This document shows positions 34,279 through 54,677 of a stretch of 64,000 nucleotides of DNA, one piece after another. Made by a program: the position numbers and the translations under genes. Each line of letters starts with the position of its first letter. The first letter of the stretch is position 1. Below the pieces are notes generated by a model. It searched no databases, had not been told where the DNA came from, and was given only the letters and a program-made list of their open reading frames with translations. The stretch is from Cellulomonas sp. JH27-2 (lineage in GTDB: Bacteria; Actinomycetota; Actinomycetes; Actinomycetales; Cellulomonadaceae). The stretch spans positions 558,001 through 622,000 of the forward strand of contig NZ_JACYFR010000001.1 of NCBI RefSeq assembly GCF_014837175.1, written 5' to 3'.

Positions 34279-34881
34279 CTACTCCGGGTCGACGACCGCG
34301 ACGCGGGCCGGGCGCAGCACCCGGTCGGCGAAGCGGTAGCCCGGCTGCAGCACGTTCTGCACCGTGGTCTCGGTGACCTCGGCACTGTGCCCGTGCATGA
34401 GCGCCTCGTGCACGGCCGGGTCGAACGCCTCGCCGGCCGCACCGTAACGCTCGACGCCGAGCCGCTCGAGCGTGGACTCGAGCTTCTCCGCGATCGACGC
34501 GAACGGGCCGGTGAGGTCACCGTGCTGGCGGGCCAGCTCGATGTCGTCGAGCACCGGGATCAGCGCCTCCGCCACCGAGGCCGCTCCCCGCCCGTGGGCG
34601 GCGAGCGTCTCGGCCTTGGACCGCTTCACGTACGCCGAGTACTGCTGCTCGAGGTTGTAGTGCGCCGCGTTGGCGCGCTGCACCTCCTCGAGCCGCTCGG
34701 CCGCGAGCTTCTGGGCCTCGACGAGACCCTCGAGCACGACGGCCTCCTCGGCCTCGGCTGCGACGGACTGCGCCGCCGCGAGCACCTCCTCCTCGGGCGT
34801 GCGCACCTCCCCCGTCTCCGGGTCGAGGCGACGCTTGTCCGTGGAGCGTGGCTCCTCGTTCGGCTCGTTGGCCTCGGTCAC
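34279..34881 (-). CDS. grpE: GrpE nucleotide-exchange factor
   Basis: 200 residues, GTG start. Acidic N-terminus, long coiled-coil helix with [20 protein letters not shown], then [11 protein letters not shown] and the C-terminal beta domain ([46 protein letters not shown]). It releases ADP from DnaK. Overlaps the dnaK 3' end by 4 nt (GTGA). Confidence 0.95.
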
Positions 34882-36734
34882 TTGGTCTCCTCGTCGTCCA
34901 CGATCTCGGCGTCGACCACGTCCTCGTCGTCCGCGGCGGCCGAGGCGGGGGCCTCGTCGGCCGGGGCGGCGTCAGCCGAACCCTGGTTGGCGTAGATGGC
35001 CTCGCCGATCTTCTGCGCGGCCGTCGACAGGGCGGCCGTCTTGGCCTTGACCTCGTCGGCGTCCGTGCCCTCGAGCGCCACCTTCAGCTCGCCGACCGCG
35101 GCCTGGACCTCGGTCTTGACGTCCTCGGGCAGCTTGTCGGCGTTGTCGACCAGCAGCTTCTCGGTCGAGTAGACGAGCTGCTCGGCGGAGTTGCGGGTCT
35201 CGGCCTCCTCGCGGCGCGCCTTGTCCTCGGCCGCGTGCTCCTCGGCCTCCTTGACCATGCGGTCGATGTCCTCCTTGGGGAGGGCCGAGCCGCCGGTGAT
35301 CGTCATCGACTGCTCCTTGCCTGTGCCGCGGTCCTTGGCGGACACGTGCACGATGCCGTTCGCGTCGATGTCGAACGTGACCTCGATCTGCGGCAGGCCG
35401 CGCGGAGCCGGCGCGATGCCGGTCAGCTCGAACGTGCCGAGCGGCTTGTTGTCCCGCGCGAATTCACGCTCGCCCTGGAACACCTGGATCAGCACGGACG
35501 GCTGGTTGTCCTCGGCCGTCGAGAAGATCTCGCTGCGCTTCGTCGGGATGGCCGTGTTGCGCTCGATGAGCTTGGTCATCACGCCGCCCTTGGTCTCGAT
35601 GCCGAGGCTCAGCGGGGTGACGTCGATGAGCAGGACGTCCTTGCGGTCGCCCTTCATGACGCCGGCCTGCAGTGCGGCACCCACGGCGACGACCTCGTCG
35701 GGGTTGACGCCCTTGTTGGGCTCGCGACCGCCGGTGAGCTCGGTGACGACCTCGGTGACGGCGGGCATGCGGGTCGACCCGCCGACGAGGACCACGTGGT
35801 CGATGTCCGCGAGCTTGATGCCCGCGTCGCGGATGACGGCATTGAACGGCGCCTTGGTCCGGTCGATGAGGTCCTGCGTCATCTGCTGGAACTGCGCGCG
35901 CGTGAGCTTGCTGTCCAGGTGGATGGGGCCGTTCTCGCTCATGCCCAGGTACTGCAGCGAGATGTTGGTCGACGTCGAGGAGGAGAGCTCCTTCTTCGCC
36001 TGCTCGGCGGCCTCGCGCAGACGCTGCAGCGCGACCTTGTCCTTGGACAGGTCCTGCCCGTAGTTGTTCTTCACCTCGGCGACCAGGAAGTCGACGACGC
36101 GCTGGTCCCAGTCATCGCCGCCCAGGCGGTTGTCGCCGGACGTCGCGCGGACCTCGATCGTCGAGAAGCCGTCGTCGTCCTTGCCCACCTCGAGCAGGGA
36201 CACGTCGAACGTTCCACCACCCAGGTCGAAGACGAGGATGAGCTCGTCCTCCTTGCCCTTCTCCAGGCCGTAGGCCAGGGCGGCAGCGGTGGGCTCGTTG
36301 ATGATGCGCAGGACGTTGAGGCCCGCGATGGTGCCCGCGTCCTTGGTGGCCTGGCGCTCGGCGTCGTTGAAGTACGCCGGGACGGTGATGACGGCCTCGG
36401 TGACGGGCTCGCCCAGGTAGGCCTCCGCGTCACGCTTCAGCTTGGAGAGCACCCGCGCGCTGATCTCCTGCGCGGTGTACTTCTTGTCGTCGATCTCGGT
36501 GGTCCAGTCCGTGCCCATGTGGCGCTTGACGGACGTGATGGTCCGGTCGACGTTGGTGACGGCCTGGCGCTTGGCGATCTCGCCGACGAGCACCTCGCCC
36601 GTCTTGGAGAACGCCACGACCGACGGCGTCGTGCGCGACCCCTCGGCGTTGGCGATGACCGTCGGCTCGCCGCCTTCGAGGACGGCGACCACGGAGTTGG
36701 TGGTGCCCAGGTCGATGCCGACTGCTCGTGCCAT
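34878..36734 (-). CDS. dnaK: DnaK Hsp70 chaperone
   Basis: 618 residues, ATG. All Hsp70 hallmarks are present: [17 protein letters not shown] phosphate loop, [48 protein letters not shown] and [12 protein letters not shown], followed by the substrate-binding domain ([20 protein letters not shown]) and a helical lid ending in an acidic [15 protein letters not shown] tail. First gene of dnaK-grpE-dnaJ-hspR; two HAIR boxes lie 39 and 102 bp upstream of the start. Confidence 0.98.
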
Positions 36735-36772
36735 GTGTGGATCCTTCTTTCGTTCCGGTGCTCGTGGACGCT

Positions 36773-36793
36773 CTTGAGTCCGCTGCGCTCAAC
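36773..36793. promoter_or_regulatory. HAIR box 1 (HspR site)
   Basis: CTTGAGT-N7-GCTCAAC, compared with the HspR-associated inverted repeat CTTGAGT-N7-ACTCAAG; left half perfect, right half 5 of 7. Upstream of dnaK. Confidence 0.8.
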
Positions 36794-36835
36794 CTTGCAC
36801 CCGCCTCTGACACGATGCAAGCCGTTCGTCGCGAA

Positions 36836-36856
36836 CTTGAGTCTGCTTGGCTCAAC
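36836..36856. promoter_or_regulatory. HAIR box 2 (HspR site)
   Basis: A second CTTGAGT-N7-GCTCAAC exactly 63 bp from the first, six helical turns, so both lie on the same face of the DNA. Typical arrangement for HspR repression of dnaK. Confidence 0.8.
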
Positions 36857-36970
36857 TTCAGCGCGCAGCTGAATGTTCCCTCGCGCCATGGGCGCGAGGC
36901 GCACGCGCTGATGGCCGGCGTTCGAGTCGCGCGCAGGTCGCGATGTCGCGCTGGGCGGCAGACTCCGTGC

Positions 36971-37648
36971 ATGCCACATGACCACGCCACGTCCGAGACG
37001 CCGGGGCGGATGGGCGGCTCGCCCGAACGACCTGCGCGCTTCTTCGACAGTCCCGAGGAGTTCGGCGCGTGGCTGGCGCTGCACCACGACACCGAGACGG
37101 CGCTGTGGATGGGCTTGAAGAAGAAGGGCTCGGCCGATCGCGGCCTGACCTGGGAGCAGGCGGTCGTCGAGGCGCTTTGCTGGGGCTGGATCGACTCGGT
37201 CGTGCAACGCATCGACGACGAGACCCGGCGGCAGCGCTGGACGCCTCGCAAGAAGACGTCCCAGTGGAGCCGGGTCAATCTCCAGCTCGTCGAGCGGCTG
37301 CGCGCCGAGGGGCGGATGCAGCCGAGCGGGCTGGCGATCTGGGAGCAGCGCACCCGCGAGGAGGCGCCCTACAGCCACGAGCGACCGTGGGCCGGGCTGC
37401 CGGACTGGTATGCCGAGCAGCTCGCCGCATCGCCGGCGGCCACCGCCTTCTGGGAGGCGTCGACGGCGAGCTACCGCAAGGTCTGTGCCGTCTGGGTCAC
37501 CTCAGCCAAGCAGGACGTCACCCGGGCCCGGCGGATGACCCAGCTGGTCGAGTGCTGCGCCGCGGGCGAACTCGTGCCGAACCAACGCTACGGCGAGGTT
37601 CCGCGGTGGTTGGCGCGGGCCGGCGCGGCAGCGGCAGAGGCGCGATGA
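36971..37648 (+). CDS. YdeI/OmdA-family protein
   Basis: 225 residues from ATG at 36971; a later Met (37010) is also possible. Family motifs: FFDSPEEFGAWLALHHD, LWMGLKKKGS, LTWEQAVVEALCWGWIDSVVQRIDD, RWTPRKKTSQWSRVN and, near the C-terminus, KVCAVWVTSAKQDVTRARRM with LIE/CCAAGE. YdeI proteins are small stress-related proteins of unclear biochemistry. Divergent from dnaK across the HAIR boxes, so HspR could affect it. Confidence 0.85.
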   Translation: MPHDHATSETPGRMGGSPERPARFFDSPEEFGAWLALHHDTETALWMGLKKKGSADRGLTWEQAVVEALCWGWIDSVVQRIDDETRRQRWTPRKKTSQWSRVNLQLVERLRAEGRMQPSGLAIWEQRTREEAPYSHERPWAGLPDWYAEQLAASPAATAFWEASTASYRKVCAVWVTSAKQDVTRARRMTQLVECCAAGELVPNQRYGEVPRWLARAGAAAAEAR

Positions 37649-51837: not shown

Positions 51838-52863
51838 ATGTCCCGCATCGTCGCCGTGGTTGCCGCGTTCGTGCTGATGGTCGTCGTGCCGTCGTCGGGC
51901 GCCTCCGCCGCGTCCACGTCCGGCGTCACCTACGTGGGCCACGGGACGGCGCGGTCGTGCACGCCCGCGGCGCTGGCGAAGGCCGTGCGCAAGGGCGGGA
52001 CGGTGAAGTTCCGGTGCGGGCCGAAGCACGTCACGATCGCGCTCGACCGCACGCTCGTCGTCTGCAACACGACCACCTGCAAGCACCCGTGGGTCGACAG
52101 CCGCGCGAAGGTCGTCAAGAAGCTGGTCCTCGACGGCGGCGGCACGGTCACGCTCTCGGGCGCCGGCAAGCGACCGATCCTCTACGCCAACACGTGCGCG
52201 GAGTCGCTGGGCTGGCTCGACGCGCACTGCGACACCCAGAAGACGCCGCACGTCGTCGCGAAGAACCTGACGATGCGCAACGGCAACGCGACCAAGGCGC
52301 CGACGTTCCAGGGCCACCGGCTCGACGACCTGCGCGGCGGCGGCGCCATCGCGATGCGCGGCGGCCGGCTGACCGTCCAGCACGTCACGTTCCGCGACAA
52401 CCGGTGCGTCAAGGCCGACTCCGACGCCGGCGGCGGCGCGGTCCGCCTCGTCGGCCAGCGGGTGACAGCCCGCCTGCTCGACTCGACGTTCGTACGGAAC
52501 CGTTGCGCCAACGGCGGCGCCGTGTCCTCGCTGCAGGCGCCGATGCTGCTGCGGGGCGACACGCTCACGGACAACGTCGCGACCGGCCACGGCGCGTCGT
52601 CGGGCAAGGGCGGCAACGGTGGCGCCGTGTACTTCGACGGCACCAAGCAGCACGTGACCGTCGACCGCTCGAGGATCCAGCGCAACCGCGCCTCCGCGGG
52701 CGGTCCGGGCGTGTTCTACGTGAGCAACGACCGGACCGGGACGCTCACGATCACGCGCTCGACGATCACCAAGAACACCGGCGCGAGCTTCTGGACGGGC
52801 GAGACGCGGAGCATCTTCTTCCTCGGCAAGCACCTCGTGCGCTCCGGATCGACGATCACCTGA
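51838..52863 (+). CDS. Secreted right-handed beta-helix protein
   Basis: 341 residues, ATG. Signal peptide ends at SASA about residue 24. The mature protein shows the Pectate-lyase/PbH1-like repeat pattern of alternating short strands (VAKNLTMRNGNAT, GGGAIAMRGGRLTVQHVTFRDNRC, GGGAVRLVG, NGGAVYFDG, LTITRSTITKNT) with three cysteine pairs. No pectate-lyase catalytic residues are obvious, so it may bind or cleave a polysaccharide or be structural. Extracellular. Confidence 0.85.
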   Translation: MSRIVAVVAAFVLMVVVPSSGASAASTSGVTYVGHGTARSCTPAALAKAVRKGGTVKFRCGPKHVTIALDRTLVVCNTTTCKHPWVDSRAKVVKKLVLDGGGTVTLSGAGKRPILYANTCAESLGWLDAHCDTQKTPHVVAKNLTMRNGNATKAPTFQGHRLDDLRGGGAIAMRGGRLTVQHVTFRDNRCVKADSDAGGGAVRLVGQRVTARLLDSTFVRNRCANGGAVSSLQAPMLLRGDTLTDNVATGHGASSGKGGNGGAVYFDGTKQHVTVDRSRIQRNRASAGGPGVFYVSNDRTGTLTITRSTITKNTGASFWTGETRSIFFLGKHLVRSGSTIT

Positions 52864-52880
52864 CGGCGGCCCGGCCGGGT

Positions 52881-53804
52881 TCAGATCAGCTCGACGCCGT
52901 CCGCCTGCGGTCCCCGGTCGCTCTGGCGGACCTTGAACCGGACCCGGTCGCCCTCCTCCAGGACTTCGTCGCCCCGCACCACCGACACATGCACGAACAG
53001 GTCGTCGCCGCCGTCGTCGGGCGTGATGAAGCCGAAGCCGCGCTCGTCGTCGTACCGCGCGACGGTCCCCACGCCACCGCGAGCCGGAGCACCCGACGAC
53101 GGGCGTCCCGAGCCGCCCCGGCCCGGGGACCTGCGACCCGCGCCGCCGACGAGCTGCACGTTGCGTGCGAGCGGGCCCCGGTCGCCGGCGGCGACGTCGT
53201 AGGTCACGCGGTCGCCCTCGGAGAGCTCGGTCAACCCTTGCGGCAGGGCCTTGACGTGCACGAACAGGTCGTCGCCGCCGTCGTCCGGCACGACGAACCC
53301 GAAGCCCTTGGCCTCGTCGTAGAACGACACCGTGCCGTCGGCGCCGTCGGACGCACCGCGCGCCGGCTGCGCCGCCTGGGCGCCGAGCGGGAGCAGGTGG
53401 TCCGCCTGCGGACCCTTCTCGCCATCGACGACGAGGAACGCGACGCGCTGGCCCTCGGAGATCACACCGCCGCCGACGATGGCCGAGCTGTGCACGAAGA
53501 TCTCGCCGCGACCCTCGTCGGGCGTGATGAAGCCGTAGCCCTTGGTCGGCTCGTACCAGGTGACCGTGCCGAGGACGCCCAGCGGCGCGTCGGCGGCGCG
53601 GTCACCCGTGACCCGGACACGGCGCGCCTGCGGGCCGCGGTCCCCCTCGCCGACCTCGAACTCGACCTCCTGCCCCTCGCGGAGCACTCGGTCCTCGCCG
53701 ACGATCTCGGAGGCGTGCACGAACAGGTCGTCGCCCCCGTCCCCGAGGTCGAGGAAGCCGAACCCCCGCTCGGCGTCGAACCAGCGGACAGCTCCGTGAG
53801 GCAC
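52881..53804 (-). CDS. Protein with four tandem cold-shock domains
   Basis: 307 residues from GTG at 53802-53804 (AAGGAG upstream). Four complete cold-shock (OB-fold) domains follow one another, each with the RNP1-like block: [63 protein letters not shown] and [20 protein letters not shown], separated by linkers; the last is preceded by an Arg/Gly/Ser-rich spacer ([16 protein letters not shown]). Each domain ends in a DRGPQA-type motif. Ordinary bacterial CSPs have a single domain of about 67 residues. Likely an RNA chaperone with several nucleic-acid contacts; role inferred. Confidence 0.92.
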
Positions 53805-53897
53805 GGTGAACTCCTTCTCGCAGATGGTGATGCTCCCCCAGTGTCCCTCACCACGCTCGTCGTGCCCGCTCGTCCGAGCTGCCGATAGGTTCGGTCC

Positions 53898-54677
53898 GTG
53901 CCCCACCTGCTCGGTCAAGGAAGTCACGCGGTGCGCCTCGACTGGGGGCTCACCGGCGCCGTGGCGGCCGGGGCCGACGTCTCCGTCATCGTCGACGTCC
54001 TCAGCTTCTCGACGACCGTCACCGTGGCCGTGGGGCGTGGGACTCGTGTCTACCCCAGTCCGTGGGCGGGCGAGCGAGCTCAGGCGCTCGCGCTGCGGCA
54101 CGGCGCGAAGCTGGCCGTCGGGCGGCTCGAGGCGACGAGGGGAAGCGTCGTCGCGCCGTCGCTGTCACCTGCCACCTTCCTCACCCGCGACCCCGTCGAA
54201 CGACTCGTCCTCCCCTCGCCGAACGGATCGGCCATCGCGGCGGCGCTGTCGGAGGAGCGTTCGCGCGTGGTCGTCGGGTGCCTGCGCAATGCCCGGGCGG
54301 TCGCCGTGCACATCGGTCACGCGCTGGACCGAGGCGCGAGTGTCGGGGTGATCGCGGCAGGCGAGCGCTGGAGCGAGGACGGAACGTTGCGCCCCGCACT
54401 CGAGGACCACCTCGGGGCGGGAGCGATCCTGTCGCACCTCGCGGCACTTGGGCACGGGCACCGCTTCAGCCCTGAGGCGGAGTCGGCCGCGACGCTCTTC
54501 GGCGCGTCGCTCGGCGCCCTGGACCGCCTGATCCACGGATGCGTCGGAGGCCGCGAGCTCACCGCCATGAGATTCGGGGACGACGTCGCGATCGCAGCCG
54601 CGCTCGATTCGACCGCGACCGTTCCCGTCCTGCGCGACGGCGCATTCGTCGACGCGGGCGAGGCCTCGCATGGGTAA
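53898..54677 (+). CDS. ComB-like 2-phosphosulfolactate phosphatase family protein
   Basis: 259 residues, GTG start. Family features: [24 protein letters not shown] near the N-terminus, [49 protein letters not shown]. In archaea ComB acts in coenzyme M synthesis; bacterial homologues have no known pathway partner, and none is here. It overlaps the following P-loop kinase gene by 8 nt. Confidence 0.85.

Follow-up and report, generated by a model that had tools for sequence, protein, structure and literature searches.

The 64,000-nucleotide stretch of Cellulomonas sp. JH27-2 analyzed here (the window; positions 558,001 to 622,000 of contig NZ_JACYFR010000001.1) carries on its minus strand a gene for a protein that contains four cold-shock domains (CSDs) in a single chain (Table 1). 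Our results indicate that this protein belongs to a real, conserved and apparently unstudied family. A profile search with PF00313 matched the 307-residue protein in four stretches (E value of 1.6e-83; 275 bits, the cut-off being 27), and in a genome search the four domains taken singly scored 67.8 to 77.4 bits, each above the PF00313 cut-off, bearing out the first-pass annotation, which had described four CSDs in one chain. The genome as a whole holds eight CSDs: the four of the array, three in strong single-domain cold-shock proteins (CSPs), and a weaker one in a further single-domain protein, L008. A longer plus-strand frame that covers the gene (positions 51957 to 53888) was taken for a shadow of the high G+C content.

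Table 1. Features of the four-domain cold-shock protein gene and its upstream region (window positions; domain borders from a purpose-built hidden Markov model, HMM; pLDDT, predicted local distance difference test)
Feature	Position	Strand	Remarks
Four-domain cold-shock protein gene	52881..53804	-	307 aa plus stop, GTG start codon at 53804, without internal stop
Candidate ribosome-binding site AAGGAG	53811..53816	-	Just 5' of the start codon; read from sequence
Conserved block TGAGGGACACTGG, perhaps -10 promoter region	53838..53850	-	Conserved upstream of orthologues
Cold-shock domain 1 (residues 4-65), position 30 Ala	53610..53795	-	HMM borders
Linker 1, 13 residues, equal length in 26/28 orthologues	53571..53609	-	
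Cold-shock domain 2 (residues 79-138), position 30 Ser	53391..53570	-	HMM borders
Linker 2, 18 residues; 13-25 in orthologues	53337..53390	-	pLDDT <50 at residues 145-152
Cold-shock domain 3 (residues 157-218), position 30 Val	53151..53336	-	HMM borders
Linker 3, 27 residues, RG-rich, predicted disordered	53070..53150	-	pLDDT <50 at residues 223-240
Cold-shock domain 4 (residues 246-306), Arg for Trp8, position 30 Val	52887..53069	-	HMM borders

The protein was compared within a set of 28 four-domain orthologues, which includes 8 proteins from Cellulomonas and 3 from Promicromonospora; the relatives are partly redundant, as some loci apparently come from the same genome (L014 and G022). The RGG-like linker that had been noted before domain 4 is a property of the family: here it holds two RGG motifs, at least one RGG is present in 23 of the 28 orthologues, and across the set this linker spans 27 to 78 residues, of which on average 82% are R, G, S, P or A and 20% are basic. 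The acidic DDGGDD loop, proposed along with it as a departure from ordinary CSPs, had to be given up as a hallmark. The exact string is found in 2 of the 4 domains of this protein and in 3 of the 112 orthologue domains (those 2 included), and because it also occurs in 5 of the 73 single-domain CSP frames of a comparison set, it marks nothing.

We then consider the binding face, with residue names taken from PMC7021800 and residue numbers that follow Bacillus CspB. The ribonucleoprotein motifs RNP1 and RNP2 are recognizable in all four domains and mostly kept across the 28 orthologues, with Phe17 and His29 retained in 28 of 28 in every domain and position 27 occupied by Phe, or by Tyr in 6 of the 28 first domains. 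Position 30 is aromatic in none of the 112 domains; it is Ala in all 28 first domains, Ser in all 28 second domains, Val (16) or Ala (12) in the third, and Val (27) or Ala (1) in the fourth. Position 8 retains Trp in domains 1 and 2, is Trp in 23 and Phe in 5 of the third domains, and is Arg in all 28 fourth domains. Among 17 single-domain sequences, position 30 is Phe in 11, Tyr in 3, His in 1 and Ala in 1 (one not shown). Phe30 and Phe38 make up a nucleotide site of bacterial CSPs that is absent from human YB-1, in which Phe30 is Gln (PMC4493011), and because YB-1 is without this site, a domain that lacks it can still be a binder of nucleic acid. With position 30 never aromatic, the family lacks the Phe30/Phe38-type site. 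By that measure, each domain would be short of one nucleotide site, as YB-1 is, and we infer that the affinity per domain is lowered.

These features lead us to favor, with a probability of roughly 0.55, the reading that the protein is a chromosomal multivalent binder of single-stranded RNA, built from four weakened domains, in Cellulomonadaceae-like and some other actinomycetes. The conserved four-domain set, with its RNP motifs largely intact, fits a protein that may grip several single-stranded segments at once, which lends partial support to what the first-pass annotation had suggested. The same substitutions also bear on a scaffold role, in which only domains 1 to 3, or 1 and 2, would bind and domain 4 would contact a protein or an RNA structure, as the non-binding domains of Unr do. 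The invariant Arg at position 8 of the fourth domain, together with the lack of an aromatic residue at position 30, and the location of this domain behind a long disordered linker would suit that role, and CSDs that do not bind and serve as scaffold are known in Unr (PMC7383231). We nevertheless regard a scaffold as unlikely.

AlphaFold, run with 22 sequences, returned four confident barrels with a mean pLDDT of 82.8 and a predicted TM-score (pTM) of 0.38, and the residues below 50 lie in two linkers (Table 1). The top two Foldseek matches are multi-CSD fragments of Drosophila Unr, at E values of 3.2e-11 and 1.4e-10, and all 25 sequence matches in the PDB up to an E value of 1e-10 have one matched stretch. 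A further reading is that the protein might be a bacterial counterpart of Unr, in which domains 1 and 2 would act as a reader of fixed spacing, domain 3 would be flexible and domain 4 would be modified on its RG-rich arm, so that particular RNAs would be chosen for how far apart their short sites lie, instead of every single strand being bound. If this were true, bacteria too would have evolved selective multi-CSD mRNA regulators. The TM-scores to Unr suggest that only the chain of domains is alike, and not their arrangement, because they are low (0.19 to 0.29 for the top two matches). We judge a counterpart of Unr unlikely; the preferred reading remains that of a multivalent binder of single-stranded RNA.

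In our surveys, the four-domain family is restricted and patchy, yet near universal in its home genus. In the genus, matches at an E value of 1e-40 were obtained in 55 of 60 sampled genomes, the window's own included (46 near full length and 9 partial; 50 of the 54 genomes of good quality). At the three wider ranks, at most five candidates were scored per genome in the results shown. In the order, 54 of 396 genomes matched at 1e-40, with 18 of 109 genera represented; 31 of these genomes belong to the window's own family and 23 to six other families, and four genomes of the own family are listed as having no match. For the class, the figure at 1e-25 is 11 of 394 genomes, seven of them at 1e-119 or better, like true orthologues, and the other four with a looser form that has three or four domains. 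In the phylum, the only match at 1e-30 among 396 genomes was the window's own. The nearest named relatives among the matches listed are Cellulosimicrobium, Promicromonospora and Cellulomonas. In a collection of the best 80 of at least 584 loci, 21 loci from 11 named genera have four domains in one frame, Klenkia marina has five, Geodermatophilus amargosae three, and one locus two, the remaining 56 being single-domain frames. Searches for carriage on mobile elements gave no match among plasmid sequences at an E value of 1e-25 and none among phage sequences at 1e-20.

The first-pass annotation held one domain to be the rule in bacteria, which agrees with a 2021 review (PMC7825780), but two-domain proteins are known. 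Of the two things that it had named as speaking against it, the first is borne out inside the clade, where the four-domain form is common, thinning out beyond it; as to the second, an earlier characterization, we recognized no paper on a bacterial four-CSD protein by titles and abstract openings among the papers listed from the open PubMed Central literature. Two observations on individual loci may be added. One contig bears two copies of the four-domain gene with equal score on opposite strands (G022:C4:69152-70075 and 113954-114877). The weaker single-CSD protein of the JH27-2 genome, L008 (G000:C3:421936-422325), is 130 residues long, in a frame of 140 residues, and occurs in all 60 genomes sampled across the class; its closest solved relative is M. 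tuberculosis CspB (9xw3), and it likewise has Ala at position 30.

The origin of the array was addressed with a domain tree of 64 columns, which drew its domains from 13 of the 28 four-domain proteins, together with 34 single-domain proteins and 6 looser relatives. Each of the four positions forms a separate clade, with Shimodaira-Hasegawa-like approximate likelihood ratio test (SH-aLRT) values of 92, 97, 94 and 94 and no bootstrap values. Because each position forms its own clade, the array was probably assembled once, the positions diverging afterwards without homogenization. The order of the duplications is unreadable because the tree has 64 columns, and most of its deep forks lack resolution. 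Descent from a single-domain protein of the L008 type was considered, since domains 1 and 3 resemble L008 by eye, and gains no support from this tree: the 20 rows of the L008 type form a clade of their own (SH-aLRT 99) that is joined to none of the four positions. When the domains were joined for tree building, the copies of Kineococcus and Dactylosporangium came out as sisters (97/89). Between Dactylosporangium siamense (L026) and Kineococcus xinjiangensis (L027), the gene and the roughly 170 bp upstream of it are 88% alike in DNA, and no further DNA match was found beyond this in the stretches compared. Because the likeness is confined to this segment, it suggests that the gene was transferred together with its promoter. 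The family is old, conserved and apparently unstudied, and belongs to one actinobacterial group.

The tree also bears on the idea that the array is a matter of dosage only, with four redundant CSP copies per chain that do the work of single CSPs and gain nothing from being linked. Each domain is a plain member of PF00313, and relatives with three, four or five domains indicate that domain number is free to vary, both of which would be expected from such an array. Redundant copies, however, would not be expected to keep to separate clades without homogenization, to carry position-specific residues in 28 of 28 proteins, or to hold the first linker at a nearly constant length, and we judge this explanation very improbable.

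Upstream of the gene, a site of the form GA[CG]A[AC]T is located 39 to 54 nt before the start codon in 28 of 28 orthologue genes. The upstream block was anchored on this site, so that its letters are conserved by construction, which does not apply to the flanking columns: G is found in 26 and 23 of the 28 sequences just before the anchor, and the counts are 25 and 26 of 28 just after it. The 47 columns from -60 to -14 hold 0.30 bits each on average. The block was also considered as the mark of a shared regulon. In the genome, it has 6 matches at one mismatch or fewer against 5 for a reversed control, and in the window 2 matches at two mismatches or fewer against 4.9 expected; because these counts do not rise above control or expectation, the block is conserved across orthologues and is not a repeated site. 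A generic sigma-70 scan gave no match. No Rfam family matches within the 64-kb window, which is no proof either way on cold induction.

As to the neighborhood, 17 of 61 relatives' loci (flanks of up to 5 or 7 kb) have dnaK downstream and in the same orientation; in the window it lies there too (36737..34881 by tblastn), at a distance of 16 kb, and in 20 unlinked genomes followed out to about 27 kb, dnaK was met in 6, on the same strand every time. An all-against-all comparison of 22 loci brought out a downstream group common to six loci, which in L009 consists of dnaK, dnaJ and hspR by family search (similarity was used for the other loci); we presume that the L009 frame between dnaK and dnaJ is grpE. 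In the window, the corresponding stretch (about 34881 to 37300, minus strand) has dnaK with dnaJ- and hspR-like genes by tblastn. A frame antisense to dnaK in L009 (6027-8078, minus strand) matches PF10712, "NAD-specific glutamate dehydrogenase," with 477 bits, and its sense frame is Hsp70; this family looks like an antisense artifact.

The linkage raises the possibility that the protein is a stress factor of the DnaK/HspR response, which would guard mRNA or ribosomes in protein-folding stress and not in the cold. We scanned for repeats using consensus sequences for the HspR-associated inverted repeat (HAIR) and the controlling inverted repeat of chaperone expression (CIRCE), without a shuffled control. 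HspR-type repeats precede dnaK in 13 of 13 regions with 1 to 3 mismatches of 14, and nine of these have two repeats, including the window, where both have 2 mismatches of 14. None as good precedes the four-domain genes, for which the best HAIR candidates in 28 upstream regions have 4 to 7 mismatches of 14 and the best CIRCE candidates 7 to 9 of 18, so that control by HspR or through CIRCE was rejected. Moreover, 44 of 62 loci show no linkage to dnaK within the stretch examined, 14 of 20 show none out to about 27 kb, and the four-domain gene has a conserved upstream block of its own. We take the linkage to be gene order kept from an ancestor, with the promoters separate. It gives a hint of a stress role and nothing beyond that, and we hold that such a role is quite improbable.

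The window's other neighbors are, as far as tested, not conserved beside the orthologues: eleven queries were found in 0 to 2 of 23 orthologue loci, those for the aldo-keto reductase, ASCH, MATE and TetR genes being out of frame, which makes their zeros void. The divergent neighbor at 53898-54677 (plus strand) matches the 2-phosphosulfolactate phosphatase family PF04029 with 71 bits against 26, lies under the NCBIfam cut-offs, and was not found near the orthologues in the 23 loci.

If the protein is a multivalent binder of single-stranded RNA, as we favor, each domain would weakly hold a short single-stranded stretch, and avidity would make the whole chain a tighter binder of long unstructured RNA (or single-stranded DNA). 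Domains 1 and 2 may act as a pair at fixed spacing, with domain 4 tethered on the RG-rich arm. The array could work alongside the three ordinary single-domain CSPs of the cell, either chaperoning RNA or packaging mRNA. Several points weigh against this. RNA, and not DNA, is assumed as the target. The protein is acidic, with an isoelectric point of 4.6, though two reference CSP domains are near this value (4.6 and 5.0). Without the aromatic residues, binding may have been lost in some domains, most of all in domain 4. In the domain tree, 5 of 104 branches are starred, with position 2 alone (97) among the four clades. The low TM-scores to Unr belong here as well. A conserved four-domain family with position-specific changes of the binding face provides a small natural system for the study of tandem weak single-strand binders. 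The question at stake is how such binders gain affinity or selectivity, which is known mainly from animal Unr/CSDE1. The parts are familiar, and an array with position-specific loss of binding residues poses a clear and testable question.

Among known systems, CspA of Escherichia coli and CspB of Bacillus subtilis have the same PF00313 domain, each domain being 40 to 52% identical in the structure matches shown, but they are single domains of about 70 residues, whereas here four domains and their linkers make up 307 residues, position 30 is never aromatic, and domain 4 has Arg for Trp8. YB-1, which has one CSD, is likewise without the Phe30/Phe38 site, with Gln there in place of the Ala, Ser or Val found here. 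Bacterial CSPs are single-domain as a rule (PMC7825780), and Caulobacter CspD, which is induced in stationary phase, also has more than one CSD in its chain, but two only (PMC4830024); no test made here shows orthology between it and the four-domain protein. The looser multi-CSD proteins (L030, L031 and L096 to L099, from Geodermatophilaceae and two other families) have three to five domains and charged linkers and are 36 to 56% identical to the four-domain protein among the matches listed; their domain number varies, and position 30 is Phe in 10 of the 12 terminal (first or last) domains and in 5 of the 11 inner ones. Unr/CSDE1 of animals likewise has several CSDs per chain, five of them canonical and binding and four non-canonical and non-binding, and non-canonical CSDs are predicted in 1,038 proteins (PMC7383231). 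In Unr the canonical and non-canonical domains alternate, whereas in the protein described here the RNP residues are kept in all four.
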